From NCBI GenBank assembly GCA_003152795.1, contig PMBA01000095.1:4449-10868 (forward strand): 6,420 nt of DNA, written 5' to 3'. Below are positions 1 through 6,064 of this stretch, one piece after another. The position numbers and the translations under genes were made by a program. Source of the DNA: Acidobacteriaceae bacterium. GTDB lineage: Bacteria > Acidobacteriota > Terriglobia > Terriglobales > Acidobacteriaceae. Under the pieces are notes generated by a model. That model was not told the origin of the DNA. It saw nothing but the letters and a program-made list of their open reading frames with translations, and made no database searches. Numbering within the stretch: position 1 is the first letter of the stretch; each line of letters opens with the position of its first letter.

Positions 1-740
1 ATGATGTCGGCGTCCGCCATGTGCTGCCAGCGCTCTTCAAACGCGATCGCAACTCCACCCAGTTTCTGCGCCAGTTCGACGGCGTGCTCCAGCGTGCGAT
101 TGATCACGCAGACGGAATGGGCGCCCTGCTTGAGCAACTCGCAGGCTGAGAGTTCACTCATCTGGCCCGCGCCCAGCAGCAGCACTTTCTTGTTTTCCAG
201 CGTGCCGAAAATCTGGCGCGCGAGTTCCACTGCGGCATAAGGAATCGAGACTGCCGCGTTACCGATGGCCGTCTCGCTGCGCACGCGCTCCGAGACAGCG
301 AGCGCCTTCTGCAACACGGCGTCCAGGAATCGGCCTGTGGTCCCAATCTTCTCCGCCTGCTTCCAGGCTTCCTTTACCTGGGAAACGACCTGGGGCTCGC
401 CCACCACCATGGAGTCGAGGCGGGACGCGACACGGAAGATATGCAGTAGCGCCGCTTCATCGAGCAAGCGGTAGAAGTGTTTCCACTCGCACAGCCTAAG
501 GCCATATTCGGCGCCGAGCAGTCGCATCACGGAGTTGGCGGCTAGGGTGACATCGGTAGCCCACAGCCAAAACTCGGTGCGGTTACAGGTGGCCATTACG
601 ATAAGTTCTTCAATGCCTTCCGCCCGCGACAACTGCACCAGAGCTTCGTAGCGCCGGTTCTCGCTGATCCAGAAGCGCTCCCGCACTCCCACCGGGGCGG
701 TGCGGTAGTTCAGGCCGACGACCATGAGGGCGGGTTCCAC
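1..740 (-). CDS. hemA: Glutamyl-tRNA reductase, N-terminal 246 residues (runs off the left edge)
   Basis: This enzyme reduces glutamyl-tRNA(Glu) with NADPH to glutamate-1-semialdehyde, the first committed step of C5-pathway tetrapyrrole synthesis in the cytoplasm. The visible part starts [13 protein letters not shown] and carries the catalytic cysteine, C52, in MATCNRTE. It continues with the tRNA/substrate-binding stretch [10 protein letters not shown] (about 108-117), the VRSETAIG helix (153-160) and the NADPH-binding loop GAGQMS (190-195). The family is usually about 420-450 residues, so roughly 40% is missing: the end of the NADPH domain and the dimerisation domain. I chose the GTG at 738-740 because GGAG lies 8 bases upstream and an in-frame TAG lies 15 bases upstream. 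An in-frame ATG at 723-725 is a possible alternative. The frame is open from start to edge. It lies 289 bases downstream of the AhbD-like gene on the same strand, which suggests a heme locus. The family call is essentially certain. Confidence 0.96.
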
Positions 741-1029: not shown

Positions 1030-2334
1030 TTACCGTAAGACCTCGGCCGGCTTGGTTTCCTTCTCCTTTAAACCCTTCGCCTGCGGCTGGTAAACGCAGA
1101 ACGGCTCCTCGTCGAGATAGTTGCCTGTGGCGGCATACGCGCGTGCGCGGCAACCCATGCAAATGTTACGGAACTCGCAGCAGCCGCACTTGCCCTGCAG
1201 GTTGTTGGTGTCGCGGAGTTCATTGAATACCACCGAATTTTCCCAGATGTCGGCGAACGCCTGCTTTTTCAAGTCCCCAGCGAGGGCGGGCAAGTATCCG
1301 CAGGGAAAGACCTCGCCTTGATGAGAGATGAAACACACTGCGGTTCCGGCCAGGCATCCCTTGGTCATAGCGTTCATGTCGGAAGGATGAGATCCGGGGT
1401 GGCCCACGGGCTGTCCCAGACCGACTTTACCAGCCCCATGAGACTTCAGTTCCATGCCGGTTGAACCGGGCATCACCATTTCGGTGGGGCCGATGCTCGA
1501 AGGTTTCTGTGCGCCTTCAACCTCGGGGGGTGCCACGTGCACCGCCGCAGCCGCTGCCTCGGAGCGGTGCTCCGCAACTCGCCGTTGGCGAACCACACGG
1601 AAGTAGTGGGGCGCGCAAGTCGCCTTCATTTCGATGCCTCCTTCGAGCGAGCGATCGTAGAACCAGTTGAGCATCCGCTCGTACTCTTCCGGGGGAACCA
1701 TCTGTTCGGCAGCGATGTCGACGCCGCAACCTACCGGCACCAGCAGGAAGGTGTGCAGCGCGTCGGCTCCGAGCGACTTTGCCAGTTCGAGCACCTGCGG
1801 AAGCTGATGGGCGTTATGACGGGCGATGGTGGTGTTGATCTGCACCGACATGCCCAGATTCTTCAGATTGCGGAAGCCGGCGATGGCGGCATCGAAAGCG
1901 CCGGGAATGCCGCGGAAGGTATCGTGAGTTAGGGCATCGGCGCCATCCAGGCTGATGGCCACGCGCTGCACGCCGCTATCGACGATCATGCGGGCAACGT
2001 GCTTGGTCACCAGCGTGCCATTGGTGGCCAGCGCCACTCGCAGACCCTTGTCCGTGCCGTATCGCGCCAACTGAAAAATATCTGACCGAAACAGAGGTTC
2101 GCCGCCACTCAGCACCAGGATCGGCCTGGACACCTCTGCAATCTGATCGATGATATCGCGGGCCGATTCGGTCGAGAGATCGGAGGGGGAACTGAGTTCA
2201 GTAGCTGTGGCACGACAATGGATGCAGCGCAGGTTGCACCCTTTGGTCAACTCCCAGAAAATCAATCGAGGCTTGTTTTGAGGCGCTTGACTGGAATGAC
2301 TTGTATGTTGCCCATTGCCGTTTGAAGAAGCCAT
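1030..2334 (-). CDS. ahbD: Radical SAM/SPASM heme-synthesis protein, AhbD-like (Fe-coproporphyrin III decarboxylase / heme b synthase)
   Basis: The family member AhbD uses radical SAM chemistry to decarboxylate two propionates of Fe-coproporphyrin III, giving heme b without oxygen at the end of the siroheme-dependent pathway. The 434-residue product opens with WELTKGCNLRCIHC, placing the SAM-cluster cysteines at C33, C37 and C40, followed by SGGEP at 76-80. A C-terminal SPASM/twitch region has cysteines C327, C334, C345, C383, C386, C392, C395 and C413, with GCRARAYAATGNYL and EEPFC typical of AhbD/NirJ. The ATCAPHYFRVVRQR segment (239-251) also fits AhbD. Residues about 253-322 form a long Ala/Pro/Gly/His-rich insert before TKGCLAG. 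The ATG at 2332-2334 was chosen because GAAGGGA lies about 8 bases upstream and the promoter elements lie beyond it. An in-frame extension to 2493 would bury those elements. NirJ or AhbC activity is the main alternative. The family is firm and the exact reaction is probable. Confidence 0.82.
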   Translation of the reverse strand: MASSNGNGQHTSHSSQAPQNKPRLIFWELTKGCNLRCIHCRATATELSSPSDLSTESARDIIDQIAEVSRPILVLSGGEPLFRSDIFQLARYGTDKGLRVALATNGTLVTKHVARMIVDSGVQRVAISLDGADALTHDTFRGIPGAFDAAIAGFRNLKNLGMSVQINTTIARHNAHQLPQVLELAKSLGADALHTFLLVPVGCGVDIAAEQMVPPEEYERMLNWFYDRSLEGGIEMKATCAPHYFRVVRQRRVAEHRSEAAAAAVHVAPPEVEGAQKPSSIGPTEMVMPGSTGMELKSHGAGKVGLGQPVGHPGSHPSDMNAMTKGCLAGTAVCFISHQGEVFPCGYLPALAGDLKKQAFADIWENSVVFNELRDTNNLQGKCGCCEFRNICMGCRARAYAATGNYLDEEPFCVYQPQAKGLKEKETKPAEVLR

Positions 2335-2414: not shown

Positions 2415-2430
2415 GGTGATTATCATCACC
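2415..2430. promoter_or_regulatory. Proximal Crp/Fnr-type operator of the AhbD-like promoter
   Basis: GGTGA-TTATCA-TCACC is a 16-bp dyad with arms GGTGAT and ATCACC perfectly complementary. It matches TGTGA-N6-TCACA at 8/10 positions and also matches the core of the FNR box (TGAT-N4-ATCA). It is centred 22 bp from the distal operator and about -41.5 from the predicted start. Confidence 0.7.
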
Positions 2431-2436
2431 GGAAAT

Positions 2437-2452
2437 TGTGATCTCCGTCACG
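2437..2452. promoter_or_regulatory. Distal Crp/Fnr-type operator of the AhbD-like promoter
   Basis: TGTGA-TCTCCG-TCACG matches TGTGA-N6-TCACA at 9/10 positions. Its centre (2444.5) is 22 bp upstream of the proximal operator centre, about two helical turns, so two bound dimers would lie on the same DNA face. It partly overlaps a separate perfect palindrome, GTCACGTGAC, at 2447-2456. Confidence 0.7.
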
Positions 2453-2535
2453 TGACCTAAGGCGTCTTGAATGTATGCATTGGAGCGAATCACGCAATGG
2501 AGCGGCGGGCGTCTGGCCGTTCCGGTCAGGGTGGC

Positions 2536-2557
2536 AGCCGGGCGGGGCTACCCGGCT
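2536..2557 (-). terminator. 7-bp stem-loop just behind the Crp/Fnr gene, possible terminator
   Basis: AGCCGGG and CCCGGCT pair perfectly across an 8-base loop, starting 18 bases after the regulator's stop codon. No T-run follows on the minus strand, so termination would be inefficient or factor-dependent. It separates the regulator from the AhbD-like promoter, consistent with separate transcripts. Confidence 0.35.
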
Positions 2558-2575
2558 CTCCAGTGCAGAAACTCG

Positions 2576-3298
2576 CTAGTTGTGGTTTGCCAGATCGCGC
2601 AGCGCTGCCGTGTTGCGAATGACCAGGGTCGAGCCTTTGGACTGGACGATCTGACGTTTCCGCATATCCGCAAACAGACGGGTAACCGTTTCGCGCGAGG
2701 TTCCGATCATCTGCGCGATTTCCTCGTGCGTCAGGCGAAGCTTCAAGCGGGGCTCGGTTTTCGCGGCCTCTCCGTTCTTGGAGCTCCATTCGAGTAGCAA
2801 CTTCGCCAGCTTTTCGGCGGCGGAGTGCGACAGCCCGAGCGAACCAGCTTCCTTACAGGCGTTGTGGTACTTTTCGCTTAACTGCTCGGCCACTTTGAAG
2901 CAGGCCTCCACATCATCCTTCAGGAACCGGAGAAAATCCTCGCGCTTGACGAAATTGACCTGGCAGGGATCGATCGTCTCCGCCGTCACCTCGTAAGGCT
3001 TGCCGGAGATGGTGGCGCTCAACCCCAGGACCTCTCCAGGTTCGGCAAGTTTCACGATGATTGTCCTGCCGCTGGGGGAGTTAATAGAAAGCTTTACGCT
3101 GCCTTTGCAGAGCACAAAGATGCCGCGGGGCAGCTGTCCTTCGACAAACAGCACCGCCCCCTGGGGATACGCGGTTGCATACTTGATGTTTTCAAAAGCC
3201 TGCAGCGCGTTCGCCGGCAGATCGCAGAAGATCCGATCGGTGCGCAGCTTGCAGGTTATGCAACTTTCTACAATCTCCATTCCGTATGGCGAGAGCAT
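2576..3298 (-). CDS. Crp/Fnr-family transcriptional regulator with FNR-like cysteines
   Basis: This is a 240-residue cytoplasmic DNA-binding regulator. It has an N-terminal cysteine segment, a cyclic-nucleotide-type beta-roll (about 30-125), a dimerisation helix (about 126-158) and a winged HTH (about 185-230). Cysteines C13, C16 and C25 (C-X2-C-X8-C) plus C112 occupy the layout of the four E. coli FNR cluster ligands, although FNR has X5 where this has X8. The cAMP-binding Arg-Ser pair of CRP is absent: the loop reads SGKPYEV. This favours a redox or oxygen sensor over a cAMP receptor. The recognition helix TSRETVTRLF (200-209) has R202, E203 and R207 where CRP has R180, E181 and R185, predicting TGTGA half-sites. 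Such sites flank this gene. The start at 3298 follows a perfect AGGAGG with 7-base spacing, and an earlier in-frame ATG (3349) lacks this support. Whether it truly holds a 4Fe-4S cluster cannot be told from sequence. Confidence 0.92.
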   Translation of the reverse strand: MLSPYGMEIVESCITCKLRTDRIFCDLPANALQAFENIKYATAYPQGAVLFVEGQLPRGIFVLCKGSVKLSINSPSGRTIIVKLAEPGEVLGLSATISGKPYEVTAETIDPCQVNFVKREDFLRFLKDDVEACFKVAEQLSEKYHNACKEAGSLGLSHSAAEKLAKLLLEWSSKNGEAAKTEPRLKLRLTHEEIAQMIGTSRETVTRLFADMRKRQIVQSKGSTLVIRNTAALRDLANHN

Positions 3299-3305
3299 GA
3301 ACGAG

Positions 3306-3311
3306 CCTCCT
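3306..3311 (-). promoter_or_regulatory. Strong Shine-Dalgarno that fixes the regulator's start
   Basis: AGGAGG on the minus strand lies 7 bases before the ATG at 3296-3298. It decides the start codon: the longer in-frame reading from 3349 would place this site inside the coding sequence and add 17 residues with no family resemblance. Confidence 0.85.
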
Positions 3312-3420
3312 GTACAAATACGAGCCGGACTCGCTTGTTTGGGACGCATCTTGCGCAGTCCATGAGCGATTTGAGCCGGTCTCGTCTGAGGTCAGTTTCC
3401 GTCTGCCGGGAACGCTTGGC

Positions 3421-3436
3421 TGTGCTGCCAGACACA
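3421..3436. promoter_or_regulatory. Proximal Crp/Fnr-type operator of the regulator's own promoter
   Basis: TGTGC-TGCCAG-ACACA matches TGTGA-N6-TCACA at 8/10 positions, with one mismatch in each half. It lies exactly 22 bp, centre to centre, from the perfect site at 3443-3458, on the side nearer the regulator. A class II -10 element would fall at 3394-3399, where the minus strand reads GAAACT, a poor hexamer, so the start point is uncertain. Confidence 0.6.
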
Positions 3437-3442
3437 CGCCAG

Positions 3443-3458
3443 TGTGATGTAACTCACA
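3443..3458. promoter_or_regulatory. Perfect consensus Crp/Fnr-type operator, likely autoregulatory
   Basis: TGTGA-TGTAAC-TCACA is a 10/10 match to the CRP-type consensus. It lies 145 bp upstream of the regulator's start codon in the divergent region shared with the malic enzyme gene. It is the distal member of a 22-bp-spaced pair. With an RETVTR recognition helix in the adjacent regulator, autoregulation is the natural reading. Confidence 0.8.
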
Positions 3459-3503
3459 TCGTATCGGACCCATCGCCGACGAGCATCCATCCTGTCTGGA
3501 TTC

Positions 3504-3536
3504 TTACCGGTCTCCCTCGCCGAAGGTTACCGTCTC
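3504..3536. repeat. Short direct repeat TTACCG(G)TCTC in the divergent promoter region
   Basis: TTACCGGTCTC (3504-3514) recurs as TTACCGTCTC (3527-3536), the second copy lacking one G. The TCTC cores are 22 bp apart. It sits between the regulator's operators and the malic enzyme operators and could be a site for another regulator, or chance. Confidence 0.3.
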
Positions 3537-3562
3537 GCGATGTCGGCCAATGGGTTAGGCTG

Positions 3563-3578
3563 ATTGACGAGTCTCACT
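3563..3578. promoter_or_regulatory. Distal, weak Crp/Fnr-type operator of the malic enzyme promoter
   Basis: ATTGA-CGAGTC-TCACT matches TGTGA-N6-TCACA at 7/10 positions, and its left half reads as the FNR-type TTGA. Alone it would be unconvincing. It is kept because its centre lies exactly 22 bp from the strong site at 3585-3600, the spacing seen at the other two promoters. Confidence 0.45.
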
Positions 3579-3584
3579 GTAGTG

Positions 3585-3600
3585 CGTGAGCGCCGTCACA
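3585..3600. promoter_or_regulatory. Proximal Crp/Fnr-type operator of the malic enzyme promoter
   Basis: CGTGA-GCGCCG-TCACA matches TGTGA-N6-TCACA at 9/10 positions. It lies 172 bp upstream of the malic enzyme start codon. A possible -10 hexamer, GATAGT (3623-3628), is centred 33 bp downstream, within one base of class II geometry. Confidence 0.65.
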
Positions 3601-3622
3601 GCACAACCAGGAGTGAAGGATT

Positions 3623-3628
3623 GATAGT
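3623..3628 (+). promoter_or_regulatory. Predicted -10 element of the malic enzyme gene, with a long leader
   Basis: GATAGT matches TATAAT at 4/6 positions and lies one base from the ideal class II position relative to the 3585-3600 operator. The resulting leader would be about 138 bases and GC-rich. It includes a GCGTCC/GGACGC inverted pair (3638-3643 and 3675-3680) with a 31-base loop. I recognise no riboswitch there. Confidence 0.35.
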
Positions 3629-3772: not shown

Positions 3773-6064
3773 ATGGTTACAAAGCAACAAGCGCTCGACT
3801 ACCACTTTGGGACACACCCGGGAAAAATCGAAGTCACTCCCACCAAGCCTTGCCGCACCCAACGCGATCTAAGCCTTGCCTACACACCCGGAGTGGCAGA
3901 TCCCTGCCTGGAAATCCAGAGGAACCCGCACGATGCGTTCAAGTACACGGCCCGCGGAAACCTGGTGGCAGTGGTGACCAACGGGACTGCAGTCCTTGGA
4001 CTCGGTGACATCGGGGCGCTCGCAGGCAAGCCCGTCATGGAAGGGAAGGCGGTTTTATTCAAGCGCTTTGCCAACGTGGATGTATTCGACATTGAACTCA
4101 ACACCCACGATCCGGATGAAATCATCAAGGTCTGCCAGTTGCTGGAGCCGACCTTCGGCGCCATCAACCTCGAGGACATCAAAGCGCCGGAGTGCTTCTA
4201 CATCGAAGAGACGTTGAAAAAAACGATGAAGATTCCGGTCTTTCACGACGACCAGCACGGCACCGCGATCATTTCGGGGGCGGCATTGCTCAACGGCCTC
4301 GAAGTAGTGGGCAAGGACATCGACAAGATTCGGGTTGTGGTAAACGGGGCGGGGGCCGCGGGGTTTGCTTGCGCCGAGCACTACGTGCGGCTGGGCGTGA
4401 AACGTGAGAACGTGATTTTGTGCGACACAAAGGGAGTCATCTACAAGGGCCGCACGGCGGGCATGAATCCCTACAAGGAGCGGTTTGCGATCGACACCAA
4501 GTTCCGCACTCTGGCGGAAGTGATGGTGAACGCCGATGTGTTCCTCGGCCTGTCTGTAAAAGGCGCACTCACGCCCGACATGGTGCGTTCGATGGCAGCT
4601 CGTCCCATCGTATTCGCGATGGCCAACCCGGATCCGGAAATCACCTACGAAGAAGCGAAGGCGACTCGGGATGACGTGATCATGGCCACGGGGCGGTCCG
4701 ACTATCCGAACCAGGTGAACAATGTGCTCGGGTTCCCGTTCATTTTTCGCGGCGCTTTGGATGTGCGCGCCACCACAATCAACGAAGAGATGAAGCTGGC
4801 CGCCACACGCGCCCTGGCAAATCTCGCGAAGGAAGATGTGCCCGACTCAGTGTGCCGCGCGTATGGTGTGGCGCGGCTGAAGTTCGGCCCCGACTACCTG
4901 ATCCCCAAGCCGTTTGATCCCCGGGTGCTGGTGTGGGAGTCCTCCGCCGTCGCCCAGGCAGCGATGGAAACCGGCGTAGCCCAGGAACCGGTGGACATTT
5001 TGCAATACCGCGAACAGCTCGAGCGTCATCTTGGTAAAGCGCACGAGATCTCGCGGATGATGATTCACAAGGCCCAGGCCACGCCGAAGCATGTTGTTTT
5101 TCCCGAAGGCGACAACGAGAAGATCCTGCGCGCAGCTCATTCCATACTGGACGAGAAGATCGCCACGCCGATTCTGCTCGGCAACGCCGCGACCATTCAG
5201 GCGAAAACCGCTGAACTTGGACTGGATCTGAAACAGGCGCAGATCGTGGATCCAGCAACGTCGCCCCTGCGCGAGCGCTACGTCCAGGAACTGTTCCGGC
5301 AGCGCCAACGGCGCGGCGTGACCCTCAGCGAAGCTTACACGCTGATCGACGACCGCAATATTTTCGCGTCCATGATGGTGCACATGGGAGACGCCGATGC
5401 TCTGGTGGCCGGCGTGACCCAGCACTTTCCCGACACCATCCGGCCCGCGCTGCAAGTGGTGCGCATGCGCGAAGGTCTGCACAAGGTAGCCGGCTGCTAT
5501 CCGATGATCACGAAAAAAGGAGAGCTCTTCTTCCTGGCCGACACCAGCGTCAATATCGATCCCTCAGCGGAAGACCTGGTGGAAATTGCATTGTGTGCCG
5601 CACAAGAGGCCCGGCGCTTTGACGTGGTGCCGCGAGTCGCGATGCTCTCGTTCTCCAGTTTTGGCAGCACCCGGCACCCGCAGTGCGACAAGGTCCGGAA
5701 AGCGGTAGAGTTGCTGCACAAGGCCGACCCAACCCTGATCGTGGATGGAGAGATTATGGCCGATGCGGCCGTCTCCCCCGAAATACTGGAGCAGACTTAT
5801 CCCTTCAGTTCGCTGAAGGGCGGCGCCAATGTGCTCATCTTCCCCGACCTCGCTTCCGCCAACATTGCCTGTAAGTTGCTGACAACCATCGGTGGCGCTG
5901 AAACCCTGGGCCCCATCCTCATGGGCATGACTCGGCCCGTGCACCTGCTGCCGCGCGGCGCCGAAGTGGAGGAAATCGTCAATGTCGTCGCCATTGCCGT
6001 AGTGGACGCGCGCGAGAGCGACCCCTCCACGGCGACCCCCGAAATCTCGAAATCGCTGGTATAA
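3773..6064 (+). CDS. maeB: NADP-type malic enzyme with C-terminal phosphotransacetylase-like domain
   Basis: This enzyme oxidatively decarboxylates malate to pyruvate and CO2 with reduction of NAD(P)+, in the cytoplasm. At 763 residues it is full length for the MaeB class (E. coli MaeB is 759). The N-terminal catalytic half has YTPGV with the catalytic tyrosine Y37, KPVMEGK with the probable general-base lysine K92, metal ligands E134 and D135 in [10 protein letters not shown] and D160 in FHDDQHGT, and the nucleotide loop GAGAAG (192-197). [12 protein letters not shown] (306-317) is a further family signature. Residues about 430-763 form a phosphate-acetyltransferase-like domain. In this class it is known as an allosteric acetyl-CoA-sensing domain, generally not an active transferase. 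TAAGGAG lies 5 bases before the ATG. It diverges from the regulator gene and carries a paired Crp/Fnr-type operator upstream. NADP preference over NAD is inferred from the family. Confidence 0.96.

Follow-up and report, generated by a model that had tools for sequence, protein, structure and literature searches.

Three promoters in a 6,420-nucleotide stretch of DNA from an Acidobacteriaceae bacterium (here called the window; GCA_003152795.1, contig PMBA01000095.1, forward strand, positions 4,449 to 10,868) each carry two TGTGA-N6-TCACA dyads with centers 22 bp apart, and this tandem recurs in the home genome and across its order as part of a longer module, TGTGA-N6-TCACA-N6-nGTGA-N6-TCAC-n-GC-N20-NAnnnT. 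The 22-bp distance, the offset of the hexamer, the GC after the proximal dyad, and the co-occurrence of the pairs with homologs of a CRP/FNR-family regulator are observed directly in the DNA. These features suggest that the modules probably hold two abutting CRP/FNR-type activator dimers, the proximal one centered near −41.5 in a class II position and the distal one near −63.5.

The window contains the start portion of hemA (3 to 740, minus strand), a gene for an AhbD-like radical SAM/SPASM protein (1030 to 2334, minus strand), the gene for the 240-amino-acid CRP/FNR-family regulator (2576 to 3298, minus strand; the start codon at 3298 was inferred from the lengths of homologs), and a gene for a malic enzyme-phosphotransacetylase fusion (3773 to 6064, plus strand). 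The radical SAM and malic enzyme genes are predicted targets. Upstream of the radical SAM gene, on the minus strand, a distal dyad matching 9 of 10 positions (2437 to 2452) and a proximal dyad matching 8 of 10 (2415 to 2430) are followed immediately by GC (2413 to 2414) and then by a predicted −10 hexamer, TATCGT (2388 to 2393), at the offset peak described below. The regulator's own promoter, also on the minus strand, has the same arrangement (distal dyad, 10 of 10, 3443 to 3458; proximal dyad, 8 of 10, 3421 to 3436; GC, 3419 to 3420; predicted −10 hexamer GAAACT, 3394 to 3399). On the plus strand, the malic enzyme promoter consists of a weakly conserved distal dyad (7 of 10; 3563 to 3578), a proximal dyad (9 of 10; 3585 to 3600) with GC immediately after it (3601 to 3602), and a predicted −10 hexamer, GATAGT (3623 to 3628), one base farther out than at the other two promoters. 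The regulator leader also contains two near-identical 12-mers 51 bp apart, GAGCCGGACTCG (3322 to 3333) and GAGCCGGTCTCG (3373 to 3384), perhaps another operator or a hairpin; similar GAGGCCGGCTC stretches were seen by eye after the −10 hexamer in relatives.

Rescoring reproduced the positions, the scores (8+9, 8+10, and 7+9 of 10), and the common 22-bp distance given in the initial annotation, whose per-position chances of about 4 in 10,000 (8 of 10 or better) and 35 in 10,000 (7 of 10 or better) are correct for equal base frequencies. Its judgment that three partners at one distance are unlikely to arise by chance was borne out by 2,000 dinucleotide-preserving shuffles of the window, which never placed more than one pair at one distance. 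Qualifying pairs at 22 bp were absent from 1,998 shuffles and occurred once in each of the other 2, compared to three in the window itself; when every distance between 17 and 60 bp was considered, no shuffle exceeded one pair per distance, a maximum reached in 118 shuffles. Dyads scoring at least 7 of 10 were not enriched in the window (22 versus 18.9 expected; 55 of 200 shuffles reached 22). Dyads scoring at least 9 of 10 numbered 3 versus 0.17 expected (0 of 200 shuffles).

We searched the home genome assembly (4.72 Mb, 475 contigs, 82% complete) with a 38-bp tandem pattern, allowing up to 3 mismatches in 20 bases, and used the reversed pattern as a control. The tandem was found at 10 places and the reversed pattern at none, and single dyads with at most one mismatch numbered 92 compared to 35 in the control. 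Around 15 perfect dyads, taken from 18 listed in this genome and chosen regardless of pairing, 8 of the 30 sides had a partner scoring at least 6 of 10 at 22 bp; no other distance from 16 to 70 bp was occupied on more than 3. A search of 150 order genomes for exact GTGA/TCAC cores at any distance from 16 to 46 bp yielded at least 75 distinct pairs; among the 75 listed, 43 were spaced at 22 bp and no more than 3 at any other distance. The 22-bp spacing is thus preferred in both the home genome and the order, the comparison on which the initial annotation had staked its reading. The same preference was seen at 80 loci encoding homologs of the regulator (80 kept of 133 found in titled genomes; some isolates contribute two loci, and some loci are paralogs), where 193 pairs lay at 22 bp, followed by 48 bp (19 pairs) and 70 bp (18 pairs), with 1 pair at 22 bp in the reversed control.

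The tandem (up to 3 mismatches) was present in 75 of the 150 order genomes. Because it stands at 10 sites of the home genome and precedes genes of many kinds, the earlier proposal of a small local regulon is too narrow, and we read the tandem instead as a code used throughout the genome and the order. Few genomes outside the window's family carry it (15 of 179 genomes of the phylum, with one place in 14 of these and two places in one; reversed control, 0), compared to 11 of 20 genomes of the window's family in the same search; the chance expectation is about 0.1 per genome, an arithmetic estimate for equal base frequencies. In genus g74 of family f22 (e.g., L193, L196, and L197), 6 of 9 genomes share one tandem with an outer half of TCCTA, which may point to a related single use beyond the order.

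To place the pairs relative to a promoter, hexamers were counted at each offset beyond each end of 239 distinct pairs (478 ends). With offsets measured from the center of the nearer dyad to the A of the motif, NAnnnT occurred at +30.5 on 137 ends and at +31.5 on 78 ends, compared to 43 at the highest other offset; the stricter TAnnnT occurred at 40 and 12 ends, respectively (highest other offset, 8). The +30.5 peak holds in every subset. NAnnnT counts at +30.5 and +31.5 were 78 and 26 for the 122 pairs at regulator-locus promoters (background mean 10.8, highest 29), 33 and 33 for 71 other pairs in regulator loci (mean 5.5, highest 13), 19 and 14 for 33 pairs in loci found by the tandem pattern alone (mean 3.4, highest 8), and 7 and 5 for the 13 home-genome pairs (mean 1.1, highest 5). 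At regulator-locus promoters, the +31.5 count did not rise above the highest background of that subset. Taking the hexamer A as −11 places the proximal dyad at −41.5 or −42.5 and the distal dyad at −63.5 or −64.5. A dyad about 30.5 bp from the −10 A is the geometry of class II activator-dependent promoters, the starts being predicted.

A further element emerged unsought from the alignment of 170 hexamer-oriented pairs less than 80% identical to one another. The proximal dyad is followed by GC (G at 0.86, C at 0.78), no comparable GC signal appears beside the distal dyad in these pairs, and a common core is found in both dyads of a pair. GC and hexamer fall on the same end: among 442 ends of 221 pairs, 127 had both, 34 had GC alone, 71 had the hexamer alone, and 210 had neither (odds ratio 11.05; p = 1.5 × 10−28). 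When the hexamer window was shifted in even steps from −12 to +18, the GC odds ratios ranged from 0.19 to 2.31. Of 298 genomes, 90 contain the exact 20-base composite; none contains the reversed form. In many genomes of genus g2, we observed one exact composite, GTGAAT-N4-TCACTGC with a GCGCACACT-like −10 hexamer, about 2 kb from a regulator homolog (e.g., G139:C110:2668-2731 and G031:C20:23742-23806).

The home genome contains 16 distinct exact class II modules, compared to 1 in the reversed control, and some of the 16 may be chance. Only 5 of the 16 have a distal dyad of at least 6 of 10 at 22 bp (no other single distance exceeds 2 of 16); therefore, a second dimer would not be a general feature of these promoters. 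The tandem appears to mark a subset of class II modules, perhaps promoters that need a steeper switch. The stronger dyad of the pair was the distal one in 74 cases and the proximal one in 5 at regulator-locus promoters, with corresponding numbers of 3 and 5 in the home genome.

Conservation in related genomes, which the initial annotation had expected of all three promoters, held for two of them and in part for the third. Of the 80 loci, 57 have a 22-bp pair no more than 450 bp upstream of the regulator gene, and 23 have none there at the scan threshold. The radical SAM gene is the next gene downstream at 24 of the 80 loci, and a pair precedes it at 23 of these 24. A divergent malic gene is found within 3 kb at 9 of the 80 loci, with at least one 22-bp pair between the genes in 9 of 9 and two pairs in one. 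Eight of these nine loci were inspected at the malic promoter, and the following statements refer to the five nearest relatives. In all five, the proximal dyad scores 8 to 9 of 10 and is still accompanied by the GC and by a hexamer at +30.5 or +31.5; however, the position of the distal dyad scores just 5 to 6 of 10, and four of the relatives keep its inner half-site, CTCAC. Because of this decay, the malic pair was rejected as a conserved pair; it is the weakest of the three in the window and is most readily interpreted as a class II site accompanied by a weak distal one. Groups picked by position comprised 52 pairs (HEM) and 19 pairs (MAL), but the former exceeds the 23 pairs before the radical SAM gene, the rest preceding another gene (by eye, a second regulator), and the latter takes in pairs that do not adjoin malic enzyme. 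Of the proposal that the sites join heme synthesis, the regulator itself, and malic enzyme, the regulator and radical SAM promoters stand and the malic pair is weak. The heme-synthesis label is uncertain because the radical SAM protein, whose best profile match is TIGR04545 (AhbD heme b synthase), scored 481.8 bits against it, below the curated cutoff of 500.

At the regulator promoter of L081, L082, L083, and others, a third dyad was observed about 48 to 49 bp downstream of the proximal dyad, where it would lie near +7. Upstream of the regulator, 18 pairs have a further dyad of at least 8 of 10 that starts 70 to 71 bp after the distal dyad. The third dyad may reflect autorepression in a subclade.

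The regulator itself belongs to the CRP/FNR superfamily, with both domains above cutoff (PF00027, 65.3 bits; PF13545, 67.5 bits). The CRP-like recognition helix noted in the initial annotation is indeed present: SRETVTR, kept in about 75 to 77 of 82 aligned proteins (four truncated), aligns with SRETV of Mycobacterium tuberculosis CRP, the helix type expected for TGTGA half-sites. Membership among the cAMP-dependent CRPs was rejected. At the places of the cAMP pocket residues of CRP, which we take to be Glu, Arg, and Ser/Thr, alignment to M. tuberculosis CRP and GlxR puts Leu, Tyr, and Glu in the regulator, and its score against the CRP equivalog NF008732 was 77.4 bits, compared to a cutoff of 266. 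Cysteines are conserved in the 82 aligned proteins (Cys7 and Cys10 in 82, Cys19 in 81, Cys58 in 80, and Cys106 in 63). The N terminus thus has a CxxC and a third cysteine, as in the [4Fe-4S] ligand pattern of FNR, but with different spacing: the third cysteine follows after 8 residues in the regulator and after 5 in FNR. The place of the fourth ligand, FNR Cys122, corresponds to Cys106 and holds a cysteine in just 63 of 82 proteins. We compared the predicted fold (alignment A3, mean pLDDT 87.8, replacing the A1 model at 54.6) with solved structures; the top Z score, 25.8, was to holo-FNR variants from Aliivibrio fischeri (rmsd 2.4, 224 aligned residues), and wild-type holo-FNR (5e44; 24.9), GlxR (24.7), and M. 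tuberculosis CRP (24.2) were about level. Foldseek ranked GlxR first. An FNR-like sensor is a plausible but putative assignment for the regulator.

Five CRP/FNR family members are encoded in the home genome, and the recognition helix of the aligned paralogs reads SRETV or TRETV. One paralog (L017:10087-10800, on home contig C428) is 51% identical to the regulator, has the same three N-terminal cysteines and the equivalent of Cys58, and lies near a pyruvate:ferredoxin oxidoreductase and its tandem. Across the 150 order genomes, binned by the E value of the best regulator homolog, pairs were found in 0 of 31 genomes lacking a homolog, 8 of 36 with a best homolog at 1e-20 to 1e-50, 31 of 44 at 1e-50 to 1e-60, 17 of 20 at 1e-60 to 1e-100, and 19 of 19 below 1e-100, the last averaging 9.4 pairs. 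The number of pairs correlated with closeness to the window's regulator (Spearman 0.78; 150 genomes, a statistic that ignores kinship).

Targets in the home genome were assigned by position and orientation to the tandem. In addition to the three window promoters (radical SAM protein, regulator, and malic enzyme), tandems precede 2-oxoacid:ferredoxin oxidoreductase genes on contigs C281 and C169, an operon whose last gene encodes a small cytochrome c, the pyruvate:ferredoxin oxidoreductase on C428, an isocitrate-dehydrogenase-family protein, an acyl-CoA dehydrogenase, an MFS transporter adjoining an acetyl-CoA synthetase, and a cluster with a glutamate-synthase-type oxidoreductase. Exact class II modules also precede genes for a [NiFe] hydrogenase small subunit, a cytochrome c, and an adenylate kinase. 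Among 30 hand-chosen open reading frames beside tandems in relatives, some pairs supplying both sides, were 7 universal stress proteins, 3 Crp-type regulators, 2 multiheme cytochromes, and 1 each with ResB, NnrS, and pyruvate:ferredoxin oxidoreductase domains. This list would fit a low-oxygen or redox regulon.

A CRP site is given as 22 bp long in PMC6301791, so dimers centered 22 bp apart would lie end to end; stacked dimers are the natural reading of the paired dyads. The proximal dimer would activate in the class II mode, contacting RNA polymerase and sigma at the −35 region, and the distal dimer would abut it upstream and help to hold it in place. The distal dimer would cover DNA that serves the alpha C-terminal domain at simple class II promoters. 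From sequence comparison we infer that the window's regulator, among the five paralogs, is the protein that binds and that it activates its targets, its own gene included; the rigid distance is the one feature that points to cooperative binding. The signal would be low oxygen or redox state rather than cAMP, as suggested by the FNR-like N-terminal cysteines and by targets that include 2-oxoacid:ferredoxin oxidoreductases, cytochromes, a hydrogenase, and a heme-type radical SAM protein.

Other readings of the tandem can be weighed against the same data. Different CRP/FNR paralogs might occupy the two dyads, so that the module joins two signals instead of doubling one. The five family members of the home genome and the likeness of their recognition helices would allow this; however, pair numbers track closeness to the window's regulator and both dyads have the same core, and we consider this reading unlikely. 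It is also improbable that the dyads are independent sites without contact, with a spare site raising the local concentration of regulator beside an ordinary class II site. Such an arrangement would suit the home genome, where 11 of the 16 exact class II modules lack a distal dyad of at least 6 of 10, but it should tolerate distances of 21, 32, and 33 bp, and the 80 regulator loci have 0, 2, and 1 pairs at these distances, compared to 193 at 22 bp. The sharpness of this preference argues for contact between the dimers.

Use of the pairs mainly as repression operators, autorepression included, has little probability. The 18 regulator-upstream pairs whose further dyad would fall near the start of transcription speak for it, yet the fixed class II offset of the hexamer and the GC element fit activation, and the offset disfavors repression as the sole function. 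Chance or base composition deserves practically no credence and was rejected as the cause: although single dyads of at least 7 of 10 are not enriched in the window, the shuffles, the reversed controls (10 tandems versus 0 in the home genome), the 193 pairs at 22 bp, and the composite counts (90 of 298 genomes versus 0) all speak against it. Two abutting activator dimers, the proximal one in a class II position, remain the preferred reading.

Soil Acidobacteria are abundant, and to our knowledge few of their regulators have been studied. The module amounts to a promoter code precise enough to be searched for, which points to likely targets in each genome and connects one family of regulators with pyruvate, acetyl-CoA, cytochrome, and hydrogenase genes. 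The tandem also poses the question of how RNA polymerase is activated by abutting CRP-type dimers that would leave little room for the alpha C-terminal domain. We tentatively suggest that the rigid dimer pair at −41.5 and −63.5 and RNA polymerase may form one platform, a further class of CRP/FNR promoter in which the distal dimer replaces the alpha C-terminal domain, and that an oxygen or redox regulator with CRP-type specificity may act as a switch for central carbon metabolism and respiration in this order of Acidobacteria.

In the literature searched, which included PMC4417206, PMC11264516, PMC3411108, and PMC6301791 and covered few subscription journals, we found neither a CRP/FNR tandem at 22 bp nor a regulon of this kind from Acidobacteria. 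Among solved structures, the best sequence matches to the regulator are M. tuberculosis cAMP-CRP and Corynebacterium GlxR, which have the same type of recognition helix; unlike these proteins, the regulator has Leu and Tyr-Glu where their pockets have Glu and Arg-Thr. It resembles the [4Fe-4S] sensors of the FNR type in its highest Z score (A. fischeri holo-FNR) and in its CxxC and third N-terminal cysteine but differs in the 8-residue spacing of the latter, the CRP-type helix, and the cysteine at the Cys122 place in 63 of 82 proteins. At class II CRP- and FNR-dependent promoters of Escherichia coli, the activator is centered at −41.5. The modules share with these promoters the TGTGA-N6-TCACA dyad, the corresponding proximal offset, and the overlap with the −35 region; in contrast, they have a second dyad abutting upstream at exactly 22 bp and GC after the proximal dyad. 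Like the tandem CRP or FNR promoters of E. coli, they would have a single promoter preceded by two dimers from the same regulator family. In the tandem promoters that Tebbutt in 2002 and Barnard in 2003 are said to have described, the upstream site reportedly lies farther off and at varied distances, whereas a single distance of 22 bp prevails across this order of Acidobacteria.
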